From Desulfurellaceae bacterium (lineage in GTDB: Bacteria; Desulfobacterota; Binatia; Bin18): DNA of 33,195 nucleotides. Position numbers and translations under genes: made by a program. The notes beneath the pieces are model-generated. The model saw only the letters and a list, made by a program, of their open reading frames with translations. It was not told where the DNA came from and did not search any database. The DNA lies in assembly GCA_021296095.1 (NCBI GenBank), contig JAGWBB010000058.1:12095-45289 (forward strand), given 5' to 3'. This document shows, piece by piece, positions 4,418-29,915 of this stretch (positions are counted from its first letter, which is position 1; the number at the start of each line of letters is the position of its first letter).

Positions 4418-7000
4418 CTACTCCTCTCGCAAGGCCAGCGCCGGTGAGGTCCGGGACATCTTGAAGGCCGGATAGACCCCGGCCAACAGCGCGGCCAGCA
4501 CGGCCAGCAGCACGGCCTGAACGAGCAGGCCGGGGACAATTTCCAGCTCCAGGGTCCAGCCAAACGAGCGCCGATTTATCACAAACACCAACACCGAGGC
4601 CAGCAGCAGGCCGACCGGCAGGGCCAGCAGGCCGGCCAGCAGACCCATCACACCGGTCTGGGCGGTGACCAAGCCCCAGACCTGACGCGGCGTAAAGCCG
4701 GTCGCCCGCAGTACGCCGAATTCGCGTTCGCGTTCCAGCTGCAAGGCCATCAGCGCACTCAGGACACCGATAAACGCCACCGCCGTGGTCAGCAGGTGAA
4801 GCACCGAGGTAATGGTGAAGGTGCGGTCAAAAATCTCCAGCGAGGCCTGGCGCAGGGACCGGTTCGAGCGGAGCTCGACCTCCTGCACCGAGCCGACCAG
4901 CCGCCGCAGCGAGGCCACCATTGCCGCCACATCCCGGTCAGGACTCAGCCACAGCCCCAGCGACGACACGCCCCGGTCGTGCCAGAACTGCTCATAGGTC
5001 CGGCGGCTCATCATCACCAGCCCCCGGTCCGAGCCGTAATCGGCAAAAATCCCGGCGACCCGAAAATCGTGTACGCCCCGGTCGGTCCGCAGACGGACAG
5101 CGCCGCCCACCCGCAGCCGGTGATGGTAGGCGTACGGCTCTGACACAATGACCGTGTGTTCAGCCTCAAAGGCCGGCCATACCACCTCCGGCCGGCCTTC
5201 AACAAAGCGGTAGGAAGAATACCTGTCGACATCGAGCCGCAGGGCCACCAGCTGGACCCGGCCGGTCGGTGATTCGACCGACACCCGCCGGTAGGTACTC
5301 ACCGCCTCCACCCCCGGGGCGGCTGACAGACGGGCGACAACGGCCGGGTCCAGGCTGCCCTCATTCCAGCGCGACACCAGGCTGGGAGGAGCAATATAGA
5401 TATCGGCCTGGAGAGCGTTCTCCAGCCAATAGGCCACGGTCTGCCGAAAACTCTCAATCATGATGCCCACCCCAACCGTCACCGACACGGCGACCATCAG
5501 GGCTGCAATCGCCACCGCAGTCCGGCTCAGCGAGGCCAGCACGCTGCGAATACACAGCCGTCCGACAATATCCGTCCGTGTCCCGATCAACAGCTGGACC
5601 ACCCGCAGCAGGCCAACCACGGCCACCGGCGTGACCAGCACACAGCCCAGGAAGATGGTGAACAGACCGCCAAAGCTCAGGATCAGGTCACGGCTGGGCA
5701 GCAGCAGCAAACCCGCCCCGACCAGCATCAGGCACACGCCAGCCACGGCCGCCCAGGGCAAAACCCGTTGCGACCGGGCTTCGAGTGTCGAGCGGTTCAG
5801 CACCGCCCGCGGCTGGGTGGCCGTGGCCTCCAGCGCCGGAGCCAGGGCGGCCACCAGGCTGGCCCCGAGTCCCAGCCCCAAGCCCTTGAGCAGCCCCAGC
5901 CCGCTGATCGTCAGCTCACGCACGCTGACGACAAAGTACAGATCGGTGATCGTCTGGGTCACCAGCCGGACCAGGCCCTGGGCCAGGGCGACCCCCAGCA
6001 CGAGTCCGGCGGCCGTACCCAGCAGACCCAGCAGGGCGGCTTCGGCCACAATCAGGCTGAAAATTTCCCGGCGGGTGACGCCGACAACCCGCAGGGCGCC
6101 GATCAGGCTGCGACGCTGGACGACCGAAAAAGTCATCGTGTTATAGATCAAAAACATGCCGACAATCAGAGCCAATAAACTCAGCGCGCTCAGGTTCAGG
6201 CTGAAGGCGCGGGTCATCTGGGCTACCGACTGCGAACGGGCGGCCGCGCTGCGGACCTCGGCGCCGGGCGGCAACACCGCCCTGATTTTGGCCAGCTCGG
6301 CCTGGCCCGGCGGACCGGCCGGAATCATCAGATCGATCCGACTCAAACGCCCGGTCAGGCCCAGCAGTTCCTGAGCGGTGGCAATATCGGTCACCAGCAG
6401 GCTGTCCAGCGCCCGGCGGCTCAGCGCATCGGCCGGCTCCAACAGGGCGATGATGCTGAGCCGCTGACGGACGCCGCCGGCCCGAACGGTGAGCTGGTCG
6501 GCCTGCCCTTCTGCGGCTTTGTCTCCGGCCAGCCCGAGACCCAGCTCACGACCCGTCCCGTAGGACATGATGGCGGTTGCCGGCCGGGTCAAAAACGACA
6601 CCAACGCGGTCTGCCCCCGGCTGTTCAGCCCGGCCAGATAGGGCCGAAACGGCGCCTCGGCAAACGGGTCAACACCCAGCACCCGAAAGGTCCGGCCCGG
6701 ATAGTCGGGTGCCGCCACATCGCCCTCGACAACCGGCGCCGCCAGCCGGACACCAGCCTCAATCCGCACGGCGCGAAAGATGTCCTCGGGAATCCCCCGC
6801 GAGCCACCGACAATCTGGTGCGTCGCCCGCCCCACCACACTGTCGGTTGACAGCAAGAAGGCGCGCTGGGCGCTGGTATTGGCCAGATCGATGGCCACCA
6901 CAACCGCCACCCCCAGGGCCACGCCGACAAAAGACAGGCCCATCTGCCACGGATGGCGGAGCAGATAGCGCAGGCTGGCCCGCCACAGCACACGGCTCAT
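4418..7000 (-). CDS. FtsX/MacB-type ABC transporter permease (two-module)
   Basis: At 860 residues this is a double-length permease. An N-terminal helix (about 17-40) leads into a MacB-type periplasmic domain. Then come the FtsX helices around 270-390, with the family phrase [21 protein letters not shown], a middle pair of helices around 412-470, a second periplasmic domain, and C-terminal FtsX helices from about 740, with [21 protein letters not shown]. Such permeases act in lipoprotein, lipid or peptide export and work with a LolD-like ATPase. The ATPase gene lies directly upstream and overlaps by 4 nt (ATGA). This size class is often genetically linked to an AttH/CrtC-like secreted protein; one such gene lies at 13136-14326. 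Confidence 0.9.
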
Positions 7001-15448: not shown

Positions 15449-16183
15449 TCAGTAACGCCAGTCTGCGTGAGCGAGCGACGCCCGGTTGAGTTCGTCCCGA
15501 TGCATGCGCCAGTGTGGCATGAGTCTGTCCATCAGATCTCGAAACCGATCATTGTGAGATCGCTCAATCAGGTGGACCATCTCATGCACCACGATGTACT
15601 CCAGGCAGGAGACCGGTTTCTTCACCAGCTCAAGATTCAGCCACACACGCTTGGCCTCGATGTTGCACGAACCCCAGCGGGTCTTCATCCTCTTGATTCG
15701 CAGGTCATCGACCGTCACGCCAACTTTCGGCTCCCATTTGGCGAGGAGGGACGGCAACTGGCTGCGTAACTGGCTGCGGTACCACTGATAAAGTACAGCC
15801 TCCCGGGTGTCCCGATTATCGCCTGGACGGGTGTGCAGTTCCAGAGTCGTGTTGTTAAGGACACGCACCCTCGGCCGTCCGGCGTGCTCCGTCACGCTGA
15901 GCCGGTAGCGGCGGCCCTTGAAGTAATGGCTTTCGCCGGTCACGAACTCCCGCCGAGACTGGCACTCCTGCCGCTCGAACTCGGCCTGCCGCCGCCGAAT
16001 CCATCCCAGGCGCGAGATAAGGGCCAGGCGCACGGCTTCGTCGTCAAGACGGAGCGGCGCGGCCACCCGCACATGACCGCTCGGCGGGTACACGCCAACA
16101 TGGAGATTCTTGATGTCCTTGTGGACGACCTCGACCGCTATCCCACGAATGTCGAGGCAGGAGCCCTTGGCTTTAGTAGTCAC
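15449..16183 (-). CDS. YgjP/DUF45-type metallopeptidase linked to type I RM
   Basis: This ~244-residue protein has the zinc-binding HExxH motif in VVHEMVHLIERSHNDRF near the C-terminus, preceded by RIKRMKTRWGSC, the standard YgjP (M48/SprT-like, DUF45) arrangement. It appears full length. GTG 16183 is chosen because AAGG lies just upstream and the start overlaps the hsdR stop by 11 nt. The frame is open to 16228, but that stretch is inside hsdR. Genes of this family commonly sit directly downstream of hsdR; their role there is not established. Unlike most genes of the island, it shows no visible damage. Confidence 0.88.
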   Translation of the reverse strand: MTTKAKGSCLDIRGIAVEVVHKDIKNLHVGVYPPSGHVRVAAPLRLDDEAVRLALISRLGWIRRRQAEFERQECQSRREFVTGESHYFKGRRYRLSVTEHAGRPRVRVLNNTTLELHTRPGDNRDTREAVLYQWYRSQLRSQLPSLLAKWEPKVGVTVDDLRIKRMKTRWGSCNIEAKRVWLNLELVKKPVSCLEYIVVHEMVHLIERSHNDRFRDLMDRLMPHWRMHRDELNRASLAHADWRY

Positions 16184-17810
16184 CCTGCGCCTTGACGATC
16201 TCGAAAATCCTGTCCACCAGAGTGTCATCCCGGAGCACTTTTTTGATGGCGTTGCGGACTTGCTTCGCCTTGAACCTGTTCCCCCGCCAGTCCGCTTTCT
16301 TCACAAGACGGATGTCTTCGTCTACGGCCAAGGCAGCAGTTTCAGCCACGGCGCTCTCGGCGGCGCAGAAGAAGCGCACATAGGCCGCCGTGTCTCGCGG
16401 CGGCTCGACCGGCTCACACAGCGCCTTGACCGCCTCACGGGTTTCCTCCAAGCGCTCCCGGCCCTGCTGAAGCCGATCCTTCAGCAAGCCCTCTACGTCG
16501 GCCTTGTCGTAGCCGTCGAAAGCCTCACCTGTATAGTCCTTGATGGACTGCTCCAACGACCGGAACAGGTCCTTATAGTCGATGATATAGCCGTATTCCT
16601 TGTCCTCGCCGTCGAGGCGATTGACCCGACAGATAGCCTGGAACAGACCGTGGTCTTGCATCTGCTTGTCGATGTACAGATAGGTCGCCGGCGGCGCGTC
16701 GAAGCCGGTCAGCAGCTTGTCCACGACGATCAGCAGCTTCATCCGCCCCGGTTCCTTGACAAAGCGTTTCTTCACCTCCCGCTCGAACTGCTCGACCTTG
16801 TGCATTGCGGTGTCTTCAGGCTCGTCGAAGTGGGCCGCCAGCATCTTGCGGTAGATGTCGTACTGGCGCAGCTTCTCGGTGAGCCCCTCACCGCTCTCTT
16901 CACCCTTGATGTCGGCCGGGGCCGGTTTGTAGGAAGTCACGATGGCGCACTTGCCGGCCAGATCGGTCTGCTGAAACAGCTCGAAGAAGCGGCAGGCTGC
17001 ATAGATGCTGTCCGAGACCAGTATCGCGTTGCCGTGACCGCTCTTCAGGCGGTCGCGCGTCTCCATATCGAACAGGATATCGGCGACGATCTTCGCCAGC
17101 CGGTCCTGCGCACTCAGTACCTTCTGCACCGTGCCCCAGCGCTGCTTGAGCTGGGCCTTGGCGACATCGGTCAGCCCCTGGGTTTTGCTCTCGAACCACT
17201 GACCGATCCTGGCCTGCGAGGTGCCGTAGCGCAGCCCCTCCGTATCGTTGCCGGCCATCACGAGTTGAACGGTGGTGAAGAACGGCTGGATGAACTCCCG
17301 CTTCTGGTTGTCGAGGTTCTGGCGTATGCCCTCGGTCACCGAGACGGTCGAGCGCTTCAGTTCCAACACGCCCAGGGCGATGCCGTTGACATACAGCACG
17401 AGGTCGGGCCGCTTTGTGTTCCGGGTGACGACGGTTACCTCTTCGGCGAGGGCAAAGTCGTTGTTGTCGGGGTTCGCCCAGTCAATCAGCCAGACGGTGA
17501 CGTGCTGCTCGCCAACGTCCGGCTGGACCTTCACTCCGTAGCGGAGCAGGTCATAGACCATACGGTTGGCGTCGTAGAGGGTTGTGCTGCCACCGAGTGC
17601 AGCGGCTTTGTCGAGTTCGCGCCGGACTTTGGTGATGATGCTGTCGTCGTGCCCCTGGCGTTTGAGCCAGTCGGTCAGCAAATCCGGCTCGATGTTGCGG
17701 TTGTTGGGACGGTCCTGCCAGTCGCCGAGGCAGGTGTAGCCGAGGGCGTCCTGGAAGAACGCGAGCACGCGCCGCTGGGTGAGGATTTCCCGCTGGCTGA
17801 CGACGTTCAT
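16173..17810 (-). CDS. hsdR: Type I restriction subunit HsdR lacking the first motor domain (internal deletion)
   Basis: The open frame encodes 545 residues, about half the usual ~1000-1100. Residues 1-195 carry the N-terminal nuclease domain, with a PD...ExK site: RPDLVLY (Asp136) and GVLELKR (Glu150, Lys152). At about residue 196 the sequence jumps from GNDTEGLRYG, which normally precedes the ATPase, to TSQARIGQWFESKTQGLTD, which normally follows it. The Walker A, DEAD-box and TGTP motifs of RecA domain 1 are therefore absent. Domain 2 (LTGFDAP; QAICRVNR) and the C-terminal helical part remain. The frame is preserved across the join, near 17220. DNA translocation and ATP-dependent cleavage should be lost. 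The start overlaps the preceding remnant by 4 nt (ATGA). Confidence 0.92.
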   Translation of the reverse strand: MNVVSQREILTQRRVLAFFQDALGYTCLGDWQDRPNNRNIEPDLLTDWLKRQGHDDSIITKVRRELDKAAALGGSTTLYDANRMVYDLLRYGVKVQPDVGEQHVTVWLIDWANPDNNDFALAEEVTVVTRNTKRPDLVLYVNGIALGVLELKRSTVSVTEGIRQNLDNQKREFIQPFFTTVQLVMAGNDTEGLRYGTSQARIGQWFESKTQGLTDVAKAQLKQRWGTVQKVLSAQDRLAKIVADILFDMETRDRLKSGHGNAILVSDSIYAACRFFELFQQTDLAGKCAIVTSYKPAPADIKGEESGEGLTEKLRQYDIYRKMLAAHFDEPEDTAMHKVEQFEREVKKRFVKEPGRMKLLIVVDKLLTGFDAPPATYLYIDKQMQDHGLFQAICRVNRLDGEDKEYGYIIDYKDLFRSLEQSIKDYTGEAFDGYDKADVEGLLKDRLQQGRERLEETREAVKALCEPVEPPRDTAAYVRFFCAAESAVAETAALAVDEDIRLVKKADWRGNRFKAKQVRNAIKKVLRDDTLVDRIFEIVKAQGDY

Positions 17811-17998
17811 GGTTTCTCTCGCTCAGACCTGACGCGTGTGGCCACGGCTCGTCCCCTGTCCGTCATGACCATCTCACTATCGTCCAGCACGCCAAGAGCA
17901 CGGATGAAGAACTGATAGGACTCGCGAGCTTGCCGGCGAACGTGATTTGGGAGGCGTCGATATGTATCCCAGAAGCTGGCTTGTGCGAACGAACGCAC
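17807..17998 (-). pseudogene. Truncated RelE/HigB-like toxin remnant
   Basis: The 63-codon frame starts with GTG 17998, two bases after the antitoxin stop. Its first ~31 residues (MRSFAQASFWDTYRRLPNHV, then RRQARESYQFF) look like the N-terminus of a RelE/HigB-type toxin. The usual central strands (a PxHPSL...YSVRV-like stretch) are missing. The remaining 32 residues contain RALGVLDDSEMV, which could be either a late piece of the same toxin or the tail of a winged-helix protein joined by deletion, and then an unrelated MTDRGRAVATRV tail. It ends in an ATGA overlap with hsdR. At this length it should not fold as a working toxin. Confidence 0.55.
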
Positions 17999-18000
17999 CC

Positions 18001-18225
18001 CTACAACTCTTCTATATTGACTGGTCGAGTTCGTCCCGATCGGTGGGCTGCCAAAGTTTCGTCGGCCAGGCGCTCCAGCAAATCCTCCGATTCAGGTCGC
18101 GCAAACAACTCGGCCCAGCGCTGGTCTGACTCCAGTGTAGCCAGCAGAAACTGTGCAAATCTGTTCTGTTCCTCTTGCGGGAGTTTGGCGATTCGCTCGA
18201 AAGCTTCCTGTAGAAGTCGGGTCAT
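18001..18225 (-). CDS. Antitoxin of a RelE-type toxin-antitoxin pair
   Basis: This 74-residue protein (MTRLLQEAFERIAKLPQEEQ at its start) continues with RFAQFLLATLES, ELFARPESEDLLERLADETL and a basic/proline-rich end. This helical, acidic pattern is common among small antitoxins encoded directly before RelE-like toxins. ATG 18225 has AAGGAGAG at ideal distance; the frame is open to 18252, but that adds only nine residues. The toxin remnant begins two bases after its stop. The antitoxin itself looks complete even though its toxin is broken. Confidence 0.7.
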   Translation of the reverse strand: MTRLLQEAFERIAKLPQEEQNRFAQFLLATLESDQRWAELFARPESEDLLERLADETLAAHRSGRTRPVNIEEL

Positions 18226-18247
18226 CGTTCTCTCCTTCCACACGTCA

Positions 18248-18277
18248 CACATACTTCAATGGCCGACACAACGTCAA
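18248..18277 (-). promoter_or_regulatory. Possible promoter of the antitoxin gene
   Basis: On the minus strand a TTGACG hexamer (18277-18272) lies 18 bases before TATGTG (18253-18248), which is about 22 bases upstream of the antitoxin ATG. The -35 is good and the -10 is poor. A 5-bp inverted repeat, ACGTC/GACGT, overlaps the -35. Suggestive only. Confidence 0.3.
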
Positions 18278-18337
18278 ACGCTGTAGACGTATGCCTTTCG
18301 TTTCGGAGTCGGGTAAGGGAATATGGCCGGACACACT

Positions 18338-18490
18338 TTAGCTTTTGTCGTCTGGCTCTGGCCTAACCAGCCGCACCCGCCCAGTGAGAAGCTGTTGCAT
18401 CATGCCCTGTTTGATAGCGCGGACTTTGTCCCGGCGGCGCTCCAGAGCGGCAATCTCGGCATCCATGTCGGAGAGGACGGTAGCTATCAA
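18338..18490 (-). pseudogene. hsdS: HsdS C-terminal remnant
   Basis: Read on the minus strand in the frame ending with TAA at 18340-18338, this encodes ATVLSDMDAEIAALERRRDK, then VRAIKQGMMQQLLTGRVRLV and a short acidic tail. That is the highly conserved coiled-coil end of type I specificity subunits. It follows the N-terminal HsdS fragment immediately but in a different frame, with two stop codons at the join. Nearly all of TRD1's second half, the central conserved helix and TRD2 are missing. It has no start of its own. Confidence 0.85.
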
Positions 18491-18876
18491 TATTTCAAGT
18501 AGTCACGGTCACACTGTATGCTTGTAATGCGGTCAGCGTTCTCGGTGAGGTTTGCGCCACTAAGATTCGGCGGAACAACGCCAACGATCCCCAGGGTGCC
18601 AGCGACACTGATGAAGATGTCTTCGCTATAGATACGATAGCTCCGAATCGCTGGAAACGCCCGCTCTGGTACATACTTAATTTCCGACTGGTTGACACCA
18701 CCGGAAAACATGTCTGTGACCCGCACGTATGGGTGTGGCGTCGGTGTATCGACAAGAACAAAGCCAGGTGGAAGTCTCTTGCCTCCCTTTACCCTAGCCA
18801 CATCGCCCACGCAGGCATGGTCCCAATCCTGTGGAATCACCCCTACTTCAGTCTGCTTGTAACCTGGGGGGATGAC
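18487..18876 (-). pseudogene. hsdS: HsdS N-terminal remnant (start of TRD1)
   Basis: The minus-strand frame reads VIPPGYKQTEVGVIPQDW, then GDVARVKGGKRLPPGF, VRVTDMFSGG and SGANLTENADRITSIQ before stopping at DYLKY. This is the opening of an HsdS first target-recognition domain. Resemblance begins at about 18876, but the first usable start codon is GTG 18840; the original start appears lost, since a TGA closes the frame near 18904. The protein should continue for about 300 residues, and instead it stops at a join with the C-terminal remnant. Base composition here is visibly more AT-rich than in the flanking chromosome. Confidence 0.82.
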
Positions 18877-18929
18877 GGTCGCTTCATTGGCATTAGAGCA
18901 TTTTCAGCAATTTCCGATGCGTCTGAAGA

Positions 18930-18948
18930 GGCGGGCGGGACGCCCGCC
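18930..18948. repeat. GC-rich perfect hairpin
   Basis: The arms GGCGGGCG and CGCCCGCC (8 bp, perfect) surround a 3-base GGA loop, and CCTCCCAGG-like sequence follows. Short palindromes of this look are often dispersed in large bacterial genomes. It might work as a transcription stop, but no T-run follows on either strand. Confidence 0.55.
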
Positions 18949-19014
18949 CTCCCAGGTTGCCCGTCCGAAGCAGCCCCTGATGACGGCGCCCAGCCGGCCA
19001 TGACTCAAGATAGC

Positions 19015-19061
19015 GTGAAAATGCGCTCCGTTTGCGGTACGGAGGTCATATCAATTTTCAC
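19015..19061. repeat. Nested inverted repeat
   Basis: Outer arms GTGAAAAT (19015-19022) and ATTTTCAC (19054-19061) are perfect. Inside them CTCCG (19026-19030) pairs with CGGAG (19040-19044). The structure is symmetric enough to fold as a stem with internal loops. Function unknown. Confidence 0.45.
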
Positions 19062-19142
19062 CCCGGTCATTAACGTCTTTGTAGGCCAAAAGAATAGAGA
19101 GCCTTCGGGCCGTGCCGACTCGCCTCGGAGGTCGTTGACGCT

Positions 19143-19300
19143 CAGCCGTCCATCCTGATCTCTCGCGCATGGGTGATGTCCGTGCGCGCGCCAAGCGCAC
19201 CTGTGACGGTCACACCGTGGCGAGCGCTGCGGTGTGACCGTCGAGGGCCAGGAACTTCACCTCGAAAGCTTCTGCGTTGGGATAGACTCGGTTGGGACCA
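19143..19300 (-). pseudogene. DUF4926-like remnant
   Basis: A minus-strand frame reads VYPNAEAFEVKFLALDGHTA followed by ALATV and then TGA at 19212-19210. After that stop the same frame gives PSQVRLARA, and a shifted frame gives TDITHAREIRMDG before a stop at 19145-19143. The sequence resembles small DUF4926 proteins (HVYP.GEAYEVEF...DG.T.AV.T...QVR). The N-terminal half is missing and there is at least one nonsense and one frame change. Recognition is by eye on a short family, so moderate to low certainty. Confidence 0.35.
19205..19242. repeat. 13-bp perfect inverted repeat inside the DUF4926-like remnant
   Basis: The arms GACGGTCACACCG (19205-19217) and CGGTGTGACCGTC (19230-19242) are exact complements with a 12-base loop. 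On the minus strand the premature TGA of the remnant lies in one arm. The second arm may be a templated inverted copy of the first, a known mutational route to perfect palindromes (inference). Confidence 0.6.
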
Positions 19301-19306
19301 CAGCGA

Positions 19307-19723
19307 CTACGACACGAGTTGGAAGCCTTGTTCGGCAAAGTGCTGGTCAAAGGCAAACGCCCTGACCGTGCCACGCTGGTGCATCACTGCGAAGCTTGTG
19401 CAGTCCACCAAGCTCAGGTTCCGTCTGTTGGCTCCGAGCAAGGTGGCGATAGCGTTTGTGTGAAGGGTCTCATCGAGCATGACCACGGTCACTATCGGCA
19501 GCATATCATCGAACAGCACGCGCACGGCATCCATCCCAAGTCTTGCCTGAACAAGAGCGCAGGTTTCCACACACACATAATTCGAGGTCACCAATAGTCT
19601 CCCGCCGCGGATCAGTCCTGTCCACCCCACGCGTGCCTGAGCATGCACCTCATCGTCCGCGTCCAGGACGGCGTAGAAAGCGGACGTGTCAATAAATACC
19701 TCTTCACTCCTCGGGTGTTTCAT
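19307..19723 (-). CDS. PIN-domain toxin (VapC-like ribonuclease)
   Basis: From ATG 19723 the protein has 138 residues, normal for a single PIN domain. The acidic active-site residues expected for the family are all visible: VFIDTSAFY (Asp), SNYVCVETCALV (Glu), SLVDCTSF (Asp) and AFAFDQHF (Asp). Such toxins cleave RNA and are neutralised by the partner encoded just upstream. The ATG lies inside the end of the antitoxin gene (20-nt overlap), so translation is coupled; no separate ribosome-binding site is seen. The frame is open to 19840, but that part is antisense to nothing conserved and overlaps the antitoxin. It appears intact in an otherwise broken island. Confidence 0.82.
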   Translation of the reverse strand: MKHPRSEEVFIDTSAFYAVLDADDEVHAQARVGWTGLIRGGRLLVTSNYVCVETCALVQARLGMDAVRVLFDDMLPIVTVVMLDETLHTNAIATLLGANRRNLSLVDCTSFAVMHQRGTVRAFAFDQHFAEQGFQLVS

Positions 19724-19961
19724 ACGCAGCGGCAAGATAGGTGTCATGGCGACGGGCCACATCGGCGCGCCCAGAATGGAAGCGTCCTGCGGCGGCAATC
19801 GCCCGCTGCGCTCGGCCTCCGTGCTCCCCCCGCTCGGCATGACTGAGGAGATGATCCACTCCGTTACGCACCAATTCGGAGATCGATACTCCCCGTTCCG
19901 CAGCCAGTGCTCGCAGTCGGAGCAACTGTTGTTCTGTAAGCTGTACCTGAGTCCGAATCAT
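19704..19961 (-). CDS. Ribbon-helix-helix antitoxin (VapB/CopG-like)
   Basis: The 85-residue protein starts with MIRTQVQLTEQQLLRLRALA, a beta strand and helix typical of ribbon-helix-helix DNA-binding proteins, then has GVSISELVRNGVDHLL as the second helix. The C-terminal part (GRFHSG.ADVARRHDTYLAAAYE) matches the toxin-binding tails of PIN partners. It should bind the PIN toxin and repress its own promoter. A near-palindrome starts nine bases before its ATG, and no Shine-Dalgarno sequence is visible there, so the transcript may have little or no leader (inference). Confidence 0.82.
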   Translation of the reverse strand: MIRTQVQLTEQQLLRLRALAAERGVSISELVRNGVDHLLSHAERGEHGGRAQRAIAAAGRFHSGRADVARRHDTYLAAAYETPEE

Positions 19962-19969
19962 AATTGGTA

Positions 19970-19985
19970 TGATGGCATGCTATCA
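19970..19985. promoter_or_regulatory. Candidate operator of the RHH/PIN pair
   Basis: The 16-base sequence TGATGGCATGCTATCA is palindromic except for one base pair (arms TGATgGC / GCtATCA around AT). It lies 9-24 bases upstream of the antitoxin start. Ribbon-helix-helix antitoxins usually bind such short palindromes to control their own operon. Confidence 0.5.
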
Positions 19986-20090
19986 TTTGAATAACAACAT
20001 GAAGCAACAACGGGGGACCAATAGTTCGGCTGGCTCGGTGCTGTATCTCTTCGGTGTTTGTCTGCTCATGCCCGAAACCGGATTCCTGAC

Positions 20091-20666
20091 TCATAGCGAG
20101 AGGCCCATCTTCTTCAGGTGGCCTTCAACCTTCACGCTGAATTCCTCCACCTCCCGCTCCAGCTCCGGCAGTGGGCTGGCATAGCGCTCTTCCAGCTCTT
20201 TGACACGGCCAGCGAGTTGCTGGGTCAACCGTTGCACTTCGCTGTCAAGGGCGGCCCGGATGCTGGCGAACCACTTGTCTTCGACCACCAGCGTTTTGAT
20301 CCCGGCTTCGGTGAGCACCGCGTAGTGGTCTAATACCTTCTGGTCCAGCTCGGCCTGGGCGTCTTTGACCGCCTTACCGGCGTTGGACTCGGCCTCAATC
20401 AGGGCAAGACAGCGCAGGAGGGCTTCCCGTTCCTCGTCGCTCTCCGGCTCGTCCTGAATGGTCTTGAGCCGGTCCTTCACGCTCGCCTTGGTGACCGTGC
20501 CTTTGTCATTGGTGGCGTCCGCCAGCAGGCCGTCCTCGCCGGTCTGCTCCTCAACGAACTCCCCCAGTGCGCGGGTGGCGGAGTCTTGCACGGCCTGAAG
20601 CGCTTCGAGCGCGGTCTGCTCAGCAGCGAAGTAGCGCGCAACAACCAAGGCCGGGGGAATCAGATC
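20091..20666 (-). pseudogene. hsdM: HsdM C-terminal remnant (out of frame)
   Basis: The frame encodes about 190 residues beginning DLIPPALVVARYFAAEQ and running through a long charged helical region (LADATNDKGTVTKASVKDRL, then PESDEEREALLRCLALIEAE) to KVEGHLKKMGLSL. This is the C-terminal helical end of an HsdM of the same family as the upstream part. It has no plausible start of its own. The upstream hsdM frame enters at about 20667 in a different phase, so the ~150 residues that normally separate the two parts are gone. The remaining sequence has no further stop. Confidence 0.85.
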
Positions 20667-21843
20667 TGTGCAGGTCCTCGGGGTCGCTGGAGTCAATGTT
20701 ACGCGGGATGTTGTAGTTGTTGGCGGAGCTGGCGATCTCCTCTATCGGCACCATCCTCTGCTTGGTGAACACGTCCACGATCTGGTGGATATCCTGGGCG
20801 CGCAGACGGTTCTTGTTGCCGTCCTTGAGAAAGCCCTTGCTGGCGTCAATCATGAAAATGCCGGTACGAGCGTGAGCCTGCTCCTTGTCGATGACCAGGA
20901 TGCAGGCGGGGATGCCGGTACCGTAGAACAGGTTGGCGGGCAGGCCGATGATGCCTTTGATCAGGCCGCGCTGGATGAGCTTGCGGCGGATATCAGCCTC
21001 TTTGTTGCCGCGAAACAGCACGCCGTGGGGCAGGATGATCGCGCCCTTGCCTTTGCTCTTGAGCGACGTGATGAGGTGGAGGAGGAAGGCGTAATCGCCA
21101 TTCTTGGCCGGGGGGATGCCATACTCGAAGCGCTTGCATGTGTCGTTGGCCGGGTCGAGCCCGCTGGACCAGGCTTTGGCCGAGAAGGGGGGATTGGCCA
21201 CGGCGAAGTCGAAAGTCTTGAGGCTGCCGGCGCCGTTTGTGAAGTACGGGGCGGCCAGGGTGTTGCCCTGCCATAATTCGGCGGCCATGTTCATCCGCGC
21301 CAGCGCCCAGGTAGCATTGTCCATTTCCTGGCCGTACACGCTGATACCATACGGCGCTTCGTCGGCGGATTTGAGCAGCAACGAGCCCGAACCACAGGTA
21401 GGATCGTAGATGGTCTGGTCCGGGCGGGTGTCGGTGCTGATGCCGACCACCTGGGCCATGACGCGCGAGACCTCGGCCGGGGTGTAGAACTGCCCCTTGC
21501 TCTTCCCGGACTCGGTGGCGAAATGCCGCATCAGGTACTCGTAGGCGTCGCCCAGCAGGTCGTCGCCCTCAGTCCGGTTGGCGCGGAAGCCGAGAGCGTT
21601 GAAGATGGCGACCAGCCTGGAGAGCCGGTCCTGCATCTCCTTGCCGCTGCCCAGCTTGGTTTCATCGTTAAAATCGGCCTGGTCGATGACGCCTTTGAGG
21701 TCGTTGGCCTCAGCGAGTCGGCCGATGATCTTATTGATCTTGTCGCCAATCTCCTTGTCGCCCTTGAGCTGCACCATGTCGGCAAAGCTGCCTCCGGCGG
21801 GCACGTCGAGGAGCGTATCGGGCTTGCCCGAGACGTACTTCAT
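20620..21843 (-). pseudogene. hsdM: Type I DNA methyltransferase subunit HsdM, N-terminally and internally deleted
   Basis: The 407-codon frame holds the catalytic core: FYTP (about 119), AdoMet motif I DPTCGSGSLL (147-156) and motif IV NPPF (217-220). Residues upstream of MKYVSGKPDT are missing; only TLLF of the usual upstream LLFMKYVS remains before the frame closes. Small in-frame losses seem present too: ARMNM runs straight into AAELWQ where relatives have an ILHGHPT-like insert, VFTKQ into RMVP, and NNYN into IPRNID. After EDLH (about 20668) the frame shifts into a non-family tail, RSDSPGLGCC..., that ends at 20620. The missing continuation lies at 20091-20666. Active methyltransferase is unlikely. 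Confidence 0.88.
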
Positions 21844-25155: not shown

Positions 25156-26454
25156 ATGCTCACCCCCGCCCTTCAGGAAGATCCCCACTACTCCTACTCC
25201 TCCGCCCAGCCGAGTCTCCAGCACGAATCGGCTCATAACCGGGTCATCTTCGGCGACAACCTGGCGGTCCTGCACGCCCTGCTGCCCGAATTCACCGAGC
25301 GCGTCAAATGCGTCTACATCGACCCGCCCTACACCACCACCTACAGCTGGACCGAGCCTGCCACCGACCTCGGGCCGACGGGCTGGCTGGACTTCATGCG
25401 GCCGCGTCTCAGCCTGCTGCGCGCGCTGCTGCGCGACGACGGGCTGCTGGCGGTGCAGATTGACGATAACGAATTCGCCCGCCTGTACCTGCTGCTGGCC
25501 GAGCTGTTTGAGGAGCGCAACCTCAAGGTCGTGTGCGTGAAAATGGCCGAACCGACCGGCCTGAAAATGGCCAGCGTGCTCAAGTACGGCGGCCTGCCCA
25601 AACTCAAGGAGTACATCATCCTGGCTGGCAAGTCGGGCGTCCGCGGCCTGCACCTCGAGCGGGTGCGCAAGGGCGGCTGGGACCGCGAGTACAACCTGTT
25701 CGTCGGTCAGGTGAGCTATGGCGAGGTGCGGCGGCTCAAAGCCATCATCGCCAAGCCAGACCGCAGCCCGGCCGACGTTGAGCAGGCCGACGCGATCTGC
25801 GCCCGGTTTCGCTTTGAGCCCATGCACAGCGCCTACCGGCGGTCAGCGCCAAGCCGGATTGGCCAGGAAGACTGGCGCTACCGCAACGCCTGGCGGATCG
25901 TCCGCACCTGCGCCACCAGCCCGACGGCCAAGCGGCTGGCCGACGCCCGCCGCACCAATCTGGACGCGGCCTGCGGCGCCTTTACGGTTGAGACGCCGCA
26001 GCGCAAGCTGTACCTGATCAAGGCCGACTACAACCCGGCCTCGGCCCAGCCCCGCATGCGCCTGCTGTTTGCCGACGATTACCTGAGCGTCCATCCCGGA
26101 GACTTCTGGTCGGATATCAAAACGACCGGGCTGGGCGACGAGGGCGGCGTCGATTTTCTCAACGGCAAAAAACCCGAAGCCCTGCTCAGGCGCATCATCG
26201 GCATGGCCACCAGCCCGGGCGACTGGGTACTCGACGCCTTTGGCGGCTCGGGCACGACCGGGGCGGTGGCGCACAAGATGGGCCGGCGCTGGCTGCTGAT
26301 TGAAAACGGTCCGCAGTGCCACTCGCACCTGCTGCCCCGCCTCCGGCGGGTGATTGACGGCACCGATCAGACCGGGGTGTCAAAGGCGGTCCGCTGGCGC
26401 GGCGGCGGCGGGTTTCGCTACTTCCGGCTGAACCCGGATCTGGAGCACGACTAG
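25156..26454 (+). CDS. Solitary type III Mod-like DNA methyltransferase (beta class)
   Basis: The 432-residue protein has catalytic motif IV DPPY at 56-59, in the context VKCVYIDPPYTTTYSW. WLDFMRPRLSLLRALLRDDG and VQIDDNEFARL follow, as in type III Mod and related N6-adenine methyltransferases. AdoMet motif I, DAFGGSGTT (360-368), is near the C-terminus, so the order is the beta class. The central 130-350 region would hold target recognition. No Res or other restriction gene is nearby, so it is an orphan methyltransferase or a remnant of a type III system. At 432 residues it is shorter than usual Mod proteins but seems complete in motifs. The otsA start follows its stop by one base. Confidence 0.85.
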   Translation: MLTPALQEDPHYSYSSAQPSLQHESAHNRVIFGDNLAVLHALLPEFTERVKCVYIDPPYTTTYSWTEPATDLGPTGWLDFMRPRLSLLRALLRDDGLLAVQIDDNEFARLYLLLAELFEERNLKVVCVKMAEPTGLKMASVLKYGGLPKLKEYIILAGKSGVRGLHLERVRKGGWDREYNLFVGQVSYGEVRRLKAIIAKPDRSPADVEQADAICARFRFEPMHSAYRRSAPSRIGQEDWRYRNAWRIVRTCATSPTAKRLADARRTNLDAACGAFTVETPQRKLYLIKADYNPASAQPRMRLLFADDYLSVHPGDFWSDIKTTGLGDEGGVDFLNGKKPEALLRRIIGMATSPGDWVLDAFGGSGTTGAVAHKMGRRWLLIENGPQCHSHLLPRLRRVIDGTDQTGVSKAVRWRGGGGFRYFRLNPDLEHD

Positions 26455-29085: not shown

Positions 29086-29138
29086 GCTGGAGAGAAACAC
29101 CTGTCGAAGAGCCCAATAGACGGAGAAGATCAGCGCGG

Positions 29139-29170
29139 TTGATAACTAGTACCACACGAGATACTAGTTA
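29139..29170 (+). promoter_or_regulatory. Inverted-repeat operator overlapping a possible promoter
   Basis: TAACTAGTA (29143-29151) and TACTAGTTA (29162-29170) are a perfect 9-bp inverted repeat with a 10-base spacer, ending 11 bases before the DUF4160 ATG. A TTGATA hexamer at 29139-29144 is spaced 17 bases from TACTAG at 29162, so a weak promoter would be covered by the repeat. This geometry (19-bp centre-to-centre) suits a dimeric HTH repressor, such as the protein encoded by the second gene. Confidence 0.6.
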
Positions 29171-29181
29171 GAGCCAGCACG

Positions 29182-29376
29182 ATGGGAAAAATCAGGAGGG
29201 GCGGCTACCTGTTTGTCACGCTTATCGGTGACCATGTCCCGCGCCACGTCCACATCTACAGGGACGGCAAAGCTGTGGCCAAGTTTGATCTGGATCGCTT
29301 CGAGTGCATGACCGGAAGCATAGACCGGCGGTTACGCCGAATTCTTCAGCAACTCGTCACGGAGGGTAAGCTGTGA
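29182..29376 (+). CDS. DUF4160-like small protein, probable toxin-antitoxin component
   Basis: The 64-residue protein (MGKIRRGGYLFVTLIGDHVP at its start) has the DUF4160 pattern: a short beta strand, RHVHIYRDGK, KFDLDRFECM and a helical end (RRLRRILQQLVTEGKL). The family is small and of unknown biochemistry, and it is often found next to a small regulatory protein. Here the next gene overlaps by 4 nt (GTGA) and encodes an HTH protein, and an operator-like repeat lies upstream. A toxin-antitoxin or other two-gene regulatory module is the natural reading, but it is inference. Confidence 0.7.
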   Translation: MGKIRRGGYLFVTLIGDHVPRHVHIYRDGKAVAKFDLDRFECMTGSIDRRLRRILQQLVTEGKL

Positions 29377-29915
29377 TCATACACGAGGTGAAGGCCAACA
29401 ACAGGCAAGCCTGTTTTCAGATCAAGACCAGGAGGGGAGAGTTCTCATTCCCGTTCATCAAGCTGAAGCTGGTCCCTTCGAGCACGAATCGGATCACGGA
29501 CGTGTACGTGGACCGAGAAGCGGGCAGGCAGGCGATCACCTACGTGCTTCAGTCCGGAGATGAGGATACCGTCCACCTCGACGACTTTCTTCACTACAAC
29601 AGGGACCCCGATTACGTGCGGGATCTGACGCTCTACAATCTGACGGTGCAGGCTGTCGATCTTGTCAAGCGCTCGAAGCTGCCCAAGCGTGAACTGGCAC
29701 GAAAGCTCAAGACCTCGCCGGCTCAGGTGTATCGCCTGCTAGAGCCGACCAATTACACAAAGACCATTGATCAGATGGTGCGGCTTCTGGCCTGCCTCGA
29801 CTGTACGGTTGATGTACGGGTGAACGAGAGCAAAGACGGTGCCCCAACGAACTCTGCCGCAGACACGGATATTGCTCCAAAGCAAGCTTGTAGGTCGGCT
29901 GAGCCCGAGGTGTAA
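29373..29915 (+). CDS. HTH protein paired with DUF4160
   Basis: The protein starts with GTG overlapping the DUF4160 stop and has 180 residues. The first ~80 form a beta-rich domain (QACFQIKTRRGEFSFPFIKL, ITDVYVDREAGRQ) with an acidic stretch, SGDEDTVHLDDFL. Residues ~105-150 form an XRE-like helix-turn-helix (LPKRELARKLKTSPAQVYRL, then TIDQMVRLLACLDCTVDVRV). The last ~25 residues are not conserved-looking, and the final ones (ACRSAEPEV) are encoded by a palindromic intergenic repeat that supplies the stop codon. It probably binds the inverted repeat in front of the pair and may neutralise or regulate the first protein (inference). Confidence 0.68.
   Translation: MIIHEVKANNRQACFQIKTRRGEFSFPFIKLKLVPSSTNRITDVYVDREAGRQAITYVLQSGDEDTVHLDDFLHYNRDPDYVRDLTLYNLTVQAVDLVKRSKLPKRELARKLKTSPAQVYRLLEPTNYTKTIDQMVRLLACLDCTVDVRVNESKDGAPTNSAADTDIAPKQACRSAEPEV

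Follow-up and report, generated by a model that had tools for sequence, protein, structure and literature searches.

Does a pair of small overlapping genes on the chromosome of a Candidatus Binatota-type bacterium encode a toxin and its antitoxin, and how would such a pair be controlled? The pair lies in a stretch of 33,195 nucleotides (the window) from a genome of 4.32 Mb (G000). The first gene, hereafter T, runs on the + strand from its ATG start at 29182 to the end of its stop codon at 29376 and encodes a 64-amino-acid DUF4160 protein, the putative toxin. The second, X, occupies 29373–29915 on the same strand, starts with GTG and encodes a protein of 180 amino acids with an N-terminal β domain and a C-terminal helix-turn-helix (HTH), the putative antitoxin and repressor. 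These coordinates agree with the 4-nt overlap (GTGA) reported in a preliminary description of the locus, which proposed an autoregulated toxin–antitoxin (TA) or defence regulator. We consider it very probable, from comparison of sequences, that T-X is a chromosomal, autoregulated type II TA operon in which the toxin gene comes first and X serves as both antitoxin and repressor.

T is a member of Pfam DUF4160 (PF13711), scoring 30.8 bits against a gathering cut-off of 23. The T proteins are uniform among relatives: 48 of 49 match PF13711 at E ≤ 0.01, all 49 listed loci encode exactly 64 amino acids, and M1, R6, D17, H18, P20, H22, H24, G45 and L58 are invariant in the 49-row alignment. The AF2 model of T (mean pLDDT 91) consists of five strands and one helix. 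A Foldseek search with this model returned nothing at E ≤ 0.001, and the best VIA Z score was 5.1, giving no convincing relative; as the fold lacks a clear match, it lends no support to a particular catalytic mechanism. The preliminary description held that neither protein has a known activity. For DUF4160 this does not hold: DhiT of Dickeya dadantii 3937, a DUF4160 protein, inhibits growth and is countered by a DUF2442 antitoxin (PMC8198452), and a Thermus pair behaves alike (PMC12724237). Against the DhiT equivalog model (NCBIfam NF048015; cut-off 100) T reaches 13.2 bits, and 6 of the 49 T proteins match that model at E ≤ 0.1. Given this weak likeness to DhiT, the predicted toxicity of T is an extrapolation across a distant family.

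X falls into no Pfam or NCBIfam family above cut-off and on its own gave only sub-cut-off HTH matches (HTH_37, 23.3 bits; cut-off 27). HTH_37 is matched by 36 of 49 X proteins at E ≤ 0.01, and the model of X (mean pLDDT 88; six strands, then helices) fits solved HTH antitoxins well in structure comparison, which bears out the HTH attributed earlier to the second gene. The C-terminal domain is closest to 6u0i (Z 11.6, rmsd 1.4, 67 residues aligned) and then to 6hpb (Z 10.9, rmsd 1.2, 66 aligned); after these HicB3 and HicB structures it resembles other XRE-type proteins, HipB among them. The N-terminal domain, which probably binds T, has middling matches to 3k8r_B (Z 8.0, rmsd 2.4, 70 aligned) and to the DUF971 protein 3luu (Z 7.4, rmsd 2.9, 73 aligned). 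T-X resembles HicAB systems whose HicB carries an HTH, both in gene order, the toxin gene also coming first in E. coli HicAB (PMC10714953), and in the HTH of its second protein. It differs from HicAB in that a Pfam scan of T at E ≤ 1 gave DUF4160 alone, with no HicA domain, and in that the listed HicB alignments span residues 84–151 of X alone.

Is the pairing kept beyond this genome? Of 145 related genomes searched, 31 contain X, and a scan of GTDB species genomes gave 136 relatives of X, of which the best 80 by similarity to X were analysed. These 80 span Binatota, Myxococcota, Nitrospirota, Actinomycetota, Gemmatimonadota, Acidobacteriota, Planctomycetota, Pseudomonadota and other phyla. 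At 68 of these best 80 loci an ORF matching T by HMM lies directly upstream of X, and within this subset the genes overlap by 4 nt at 57 of the 62 loci where the start could be placed. Two small, co-oriented, overlapping genes are thus kept as a pair, as in type II TA operons. A third arrangement of the T toxin was seen at L158, L159 and L160, where T relatives are paired with XRE-like ORFs of 181–200 amino acids; the L159 partner, the one of the three that was scanned, has a clear HTH_3, and the three partners, compared jointly, show homology along the length of X (hhalign 95%, E 4e-8).

We then considered the DNA in front of T. The perfect 9-bp inverted repeat of the preliminary description is present as TAACTAGTA-N10-TACTAGTTA (arms 29143–29151 and 29162–29170; extended operator 29143–29170), and none of 100 shuffles of the window held a perfect 9-bp repeat with a 10-nt gap. 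The surrounding 1.2-kb region contains 17 inverted repeats, and because this one is among several short ones the repeat alone would be weak evidence; comparison with relatives makes it significant. The 9-bp arms form the outer part of a site whose core, AGTACC-N6-GATACT (29148–29165), is the window's form of a family-wide (G/A)NTA(C/T)C-N6-G(G/A)TANN. The pattern TA[CT]C-N6-G[GA]TA occurs in 57 of 58 60-nt regions upstream of T, the window included, as against 0/58 inside T and 0/58 at 120–180 nt upstream. Counted within 420 nt of X, it was found at 71 of the best 80 loci (of 136) and in 21 of 1329 control windows. The exact form GTTACC-N6-GGTAAC is present in 26 of the 58 upstream regions and at 52 of 170 loci, in a single copy each, and perfect 6-bp arms with a 6-nt gap occur in 31 of the 58, compared with a shuffle mean of 0.72. 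Dyad symmetry is also raised beyond the core in relatives (position 10, 36/56; positions 12 and 13, 31/54). The Binatota relatives L003 and L004 (= L032) carry ACTAGTATC-N6-GATACTAGT or a degraded form of it, and in L039, from Actinomycetota, the left half is like that of the window and the right half is the common one. This conservation in front of homologues rules out a chance repeat, and it answers in the affirmative the search upstream of homologues on which the preliminary description had staked its claim. An antitoxin with an HTH and a conserved, predicted operator over the operon promoter is what a type II TA system would show.

The promoter itself is less sharply defined. The preliminary description placed a possible promoter under the repeat; a sigma-70 consensus scan returned no sites, and it is comparison with relatives that points to a −35/−10 pair. 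The putative −35, TTGATA (29139–29144, + strand), and the putative −10, TACTAG (29162–29167, + strand), would be 17 nt apart, the latter lying within the right half-site and aligning with TAACAT/TAACAC of relatives. The spacing of the TTG is kept: it lies 9 nt upstream of the operator core at 31 of 57 loci, and 13 others have it at 8 or 10 nt. The right half of the operator overlaps the predicted −10.

The two genes differ in their translation signals. X has a Shine–Dalgarno (SD) site, GGAGGG (29361–29366, + strand), inside the end of T, and its anti-SD pairing in the window is −10.0 kcal/mol, as against −2.1 kcal/mol for T, which has no SD site. The same imbalance is seen in relatives: the mean anti-SD energy (n = 58) is −8.15 kcal/mol for X, −4.62 for T and −3.32 for the control, and the share of cases with a four-base core SD site is 53 of 58 for X and 17 of 58 for T. 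The Glu-Gly that ends T is conserved and may account for some of the signal at X. The commonest distance from operator core to T start is 8 nt (25/57; 16 nt in the window), so that the T message is predicted to be almost leaderless, with a very short leader in the window. We propose that, with a weak ribosome site for T and a strong one for X, the antitoxin would be made in excess.

A further feature of the family is the one-sided loss of T. Among the best 80 of the 136 loci, T is intact at 55, broken at 16 and absent from 9, while X is full length at 79. The lesions are varied and include point stops (L059, L075, L105, L108), single-base indels (L064, L072, L101) and deletions (L034, L035, L069, L092, L097, L100). 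In L100, near 5965–6001, a deletion fuses the first codons of T and X at a short shared stretch and leaves the operator in place. Mapped onto a tree of 81 X proteins, the broken-T state requires 23 changes, and well-supported branches leave no alternative for 20 of these. Assembly errors can be set aside as the main cause, because at 79 of 80 loci the same contigs carry X, a gene about 2.5 times as long, at full length; the bias of ranking by X applies to this count. Several breaks fall near codons 13–38, and a programmed frameshift in T was also considered; it was rejected because the indels and stops differ in kind and place and share no common slippery sequence by eye. The loss can be followed closely in a same-genus relative, in which some 256 bp (about 29095 to 29350) are replaced by some 11 nt, the junction having been read by eye because the MAFFT alignment is poor there. 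This deletion removes the promoter, the operator and most of T, and leaves the ribosome site of X; the X of this relative is 92% identical to that of the window, with a dN/dS of 0.27.

Since X served both to find the 80 loci and, by similarity, to rank them, broken copies of X are under-represented among them. We therefore made a smaller, two-sided check in Binatota, starting once from X and once from T (145 and 141 genomes, sets that are not quite identical). Among 24 intact X of the window type, 16 are accompanied by an intact T and 8 by a broken one or none (G001, G050, G128:C300, G117:C404, G063:C117, G051, G069 and G085). Conversely, of 24 intact T with downstream sequence, 16 belonging to the window type and 5 and 3 to two related ones, every one was followed by an open X or partner gene and none by a broken one; two further T lie at contig edges. 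If lesions were proportional to gene length, the chance that all 8 of 8 would fall in T is about 5e-5 (calculated by hand). Two remnants of X that lack T, and one of T that lacks X (G059), probably represent pairs in which both genes have decayed.

Recurrent loss could also mean that T is merely dispensable. X, an orphan at 25 of the 80 loci, may have its own use, and could be an ordinary useful regulator with a site at its own promoter, T being a harmless partner such as a co-repressor or a ligand sensor. X is indeed kept where T has been lost, its dN/dS in the same-genus relative indicates purifying selection, and the operator pattern stays at 17 of the 25 loci with T broken or absent, compared with 54 of the 55 with T intact (best 80 of 136). 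Several observations nevertheless argue against a free-standing regulator. The 24-nt form of the extended operator has a single location in the window's genome, and likewise in G093 and in G068 (G001 has none), so that a wider regulon is not seen. DUF4160 relatives are toxic, and the Binatota check found no intact T without a partner. Finally, 25 rows with T broken or absent account for 23 changes, and orphan X sits at the tips of the tree rather than in large clades; orphan X therefore seems short-lived, which fits an antitoxin decaying after its toxin better than it fits a regulator. We regard the regulator explanation as quite improbable and retain the TA operon.

If T-X is a TA operon, how does it relate to the known DUF4160 systems? 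The Dickeya report (PMC8198452) describes dhiTA as chromosomal, with the toxin gene first, an overlap of −3, and a promoter repressed by the antitoxin and more strongly by the complex, the toxin acting as co-repressor. T-X is like it in that its DUF4160 gene also comes first, on a chromosome, upstream of its partner and overlapping it by a few nucleotides. The difference lies in the antitoxin, a DUF2442 protein there and here a 180-residue protein that has an HTH and in which no DUF2442 could be detected. A persistence-enhancing module of Thermus plasmids (PMC12724237) has the same order, DUF4160 (87 amino acids) first and DUF2442 (92 amino acids) second. The plasmid could not be established without the DUF2442 gene, which implies that DUF4160 is toxic there; the authors also report stable maintenance of the single-gene deletions in E. 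coli, which makes the choice of test host important. This module differs from T-X in its DUF2442 antitoxin and in being plasmid-borne and stabilising plasmids, X not having been found in the plasmid collection by tblastn at E ≤ 1e-3.

X might itself be a DUF2442 antitoxin that has diverged and gained an HTH, which would make T-X a DhiTA system. The shared toxin family, gene order and overlap speak for this, as does the homology to X of the L158–L160 partners, with the clear HTH_3 in L159. A further link is NE0471 (2auw), a putative DNA-binding protein by title with a DUF2442-like N-terminus: a DUF2442 query finds it by sequence (residues 9–81 of 170), and X finds it weakly by Foldseek (rank 25, E 0.11), whereas a sequence relation between NE0471 and X was sought and none was found. 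Against a diverged DUF2442, Pfam detected no such domain in 49 X proteins, and profile comparison of X with DUF2442 by hhalign gave probabilities of 1.5% (5 sequences) and 0.6% (21 sequences), compared with 97% for the positive control. These two negative results reject X as a DUF2442 protein in the ordinary sense; remote descent from one we hold to be possible but somewhat doubtful.

The genome itself offers a comparison. It contains five DUF4160 genes, four of which (C6, C15, C59 and C69) have a DUF2442 match 13–84 nt downstream and are, as judged by these matches, DhiTA-type pairs; the fifth, by comparison of coordinates by eye, is T, with X as its partner. A full-text literature search, with subscription papers and preprints outside its reach, found no DUF4160 protein with a separate HTH partner. 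It is thus the antitoxin-repressor family, unnamed and cross-phylum, that would be new here, the toxin family DUF4160 being known. The fuller proposal is that X represents a widespread family, separate from DUF2442 and with its own repressor domain, that neutralises DUF4160 and so defines an undescribed TA family, found here in a genome with four DUF4160/DUF2442 pairs, with a nearly leaderless toxin message, a strong ribosome site for the antitoxin and a toxin gene lost repeatedly across phyla. For this proposal as a whole we judge the balance to be even.

The surroundings of the pair bear on a role in defence. Downstream of X, on the opposite strand, lies trpS, and upstream of the pair a gene for a metallo-β-lactamase-fold protein; in a search for an empty site, the fetched flanks of the relatives of this upstream gene in G004 and G006 held neither trpS nor T-X. 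A stand-alone N6_N4 DNA methylase ORF (432 amino acids; 25156–26454, + strand) is followed by a trehalose-phosphate-synthase-like ORF, named by reading. Elsewhere in the window (16173–21843, − strand) are type I restriction genes of degenerate look. Their HsdR-like ORF (545 amino acids) passes from HSDR_N (8–198) directly to domain 3 (260–414), its motor domains seemingly missing; the HsdM-like ORF has 407 amino acids, short ORFs lie between the restriction genes, and a VapC-like PIN-domain protein (PF01850, E 3.6e-9) is encoded within the cluster at 19307–19840 on the − strand.

T-X could accordingly be viewed as a phage-defence module of the abortive-infection kind, with T an effector released when X is disturbed. 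Its TA architecture, its patchy distribution across many phyla and the degenerate restriction genes in the same window are compatible with such a role. PADLOC, however, gave no match for T and a marginal one for X (PDC-M64B, E 0.005), so that the two genes do not fall into one system; the neighbours trpS and the trehalose-phosphate-synthase-like ORF are housekeeping genes; and X was not found in plasmid and phage collections (tblastn, E ≤ 1e-3) or in an IMG/VR scan at the sensitivities used. A defence module is therefore unlikely in our estimation. Of the two possibilities in the preliminary description, the defence regulator gains nothing from these results, and the autoregulated TA operon is well supported by its conserved pairing, the operator before homologues and the repeated decay of T beside a retained X.

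Taken as a TA operon, the pair could work as follows. T would be a small growth-inhibiting protein, probably an enzyme acting through its invariant D-H-x-P-x-H-x-H cluster, and X would bind and neutralise it, most likely by its N-terminal β domain. Alone or together with T, X would use its C-terminal HTH to bind the dyad that lies between −35 and −10 and would shut its own promoter. T would be translated with little or no help from an SD sequence in its leader, and X from the strong site inside the end of T.

DUF4160 proteins are common and mostly annotated as unknown; the two published cases behave as toxins, each with a DUF2442 partner. A second, unrelated-looking partner would show that the DUF4160 toxin fold exchanges antitoxins. 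T-X would also add an uncharacterised pair, spread over several phyla, whose operator is sharply delimited and whose many naturally inactivated toxin alleles could be used to gauge the cost of the toxin to its host. Through the conserved residues D17, H18, H22 and H24 and the 28-bp site, both toxicity and repression are open to direct test.
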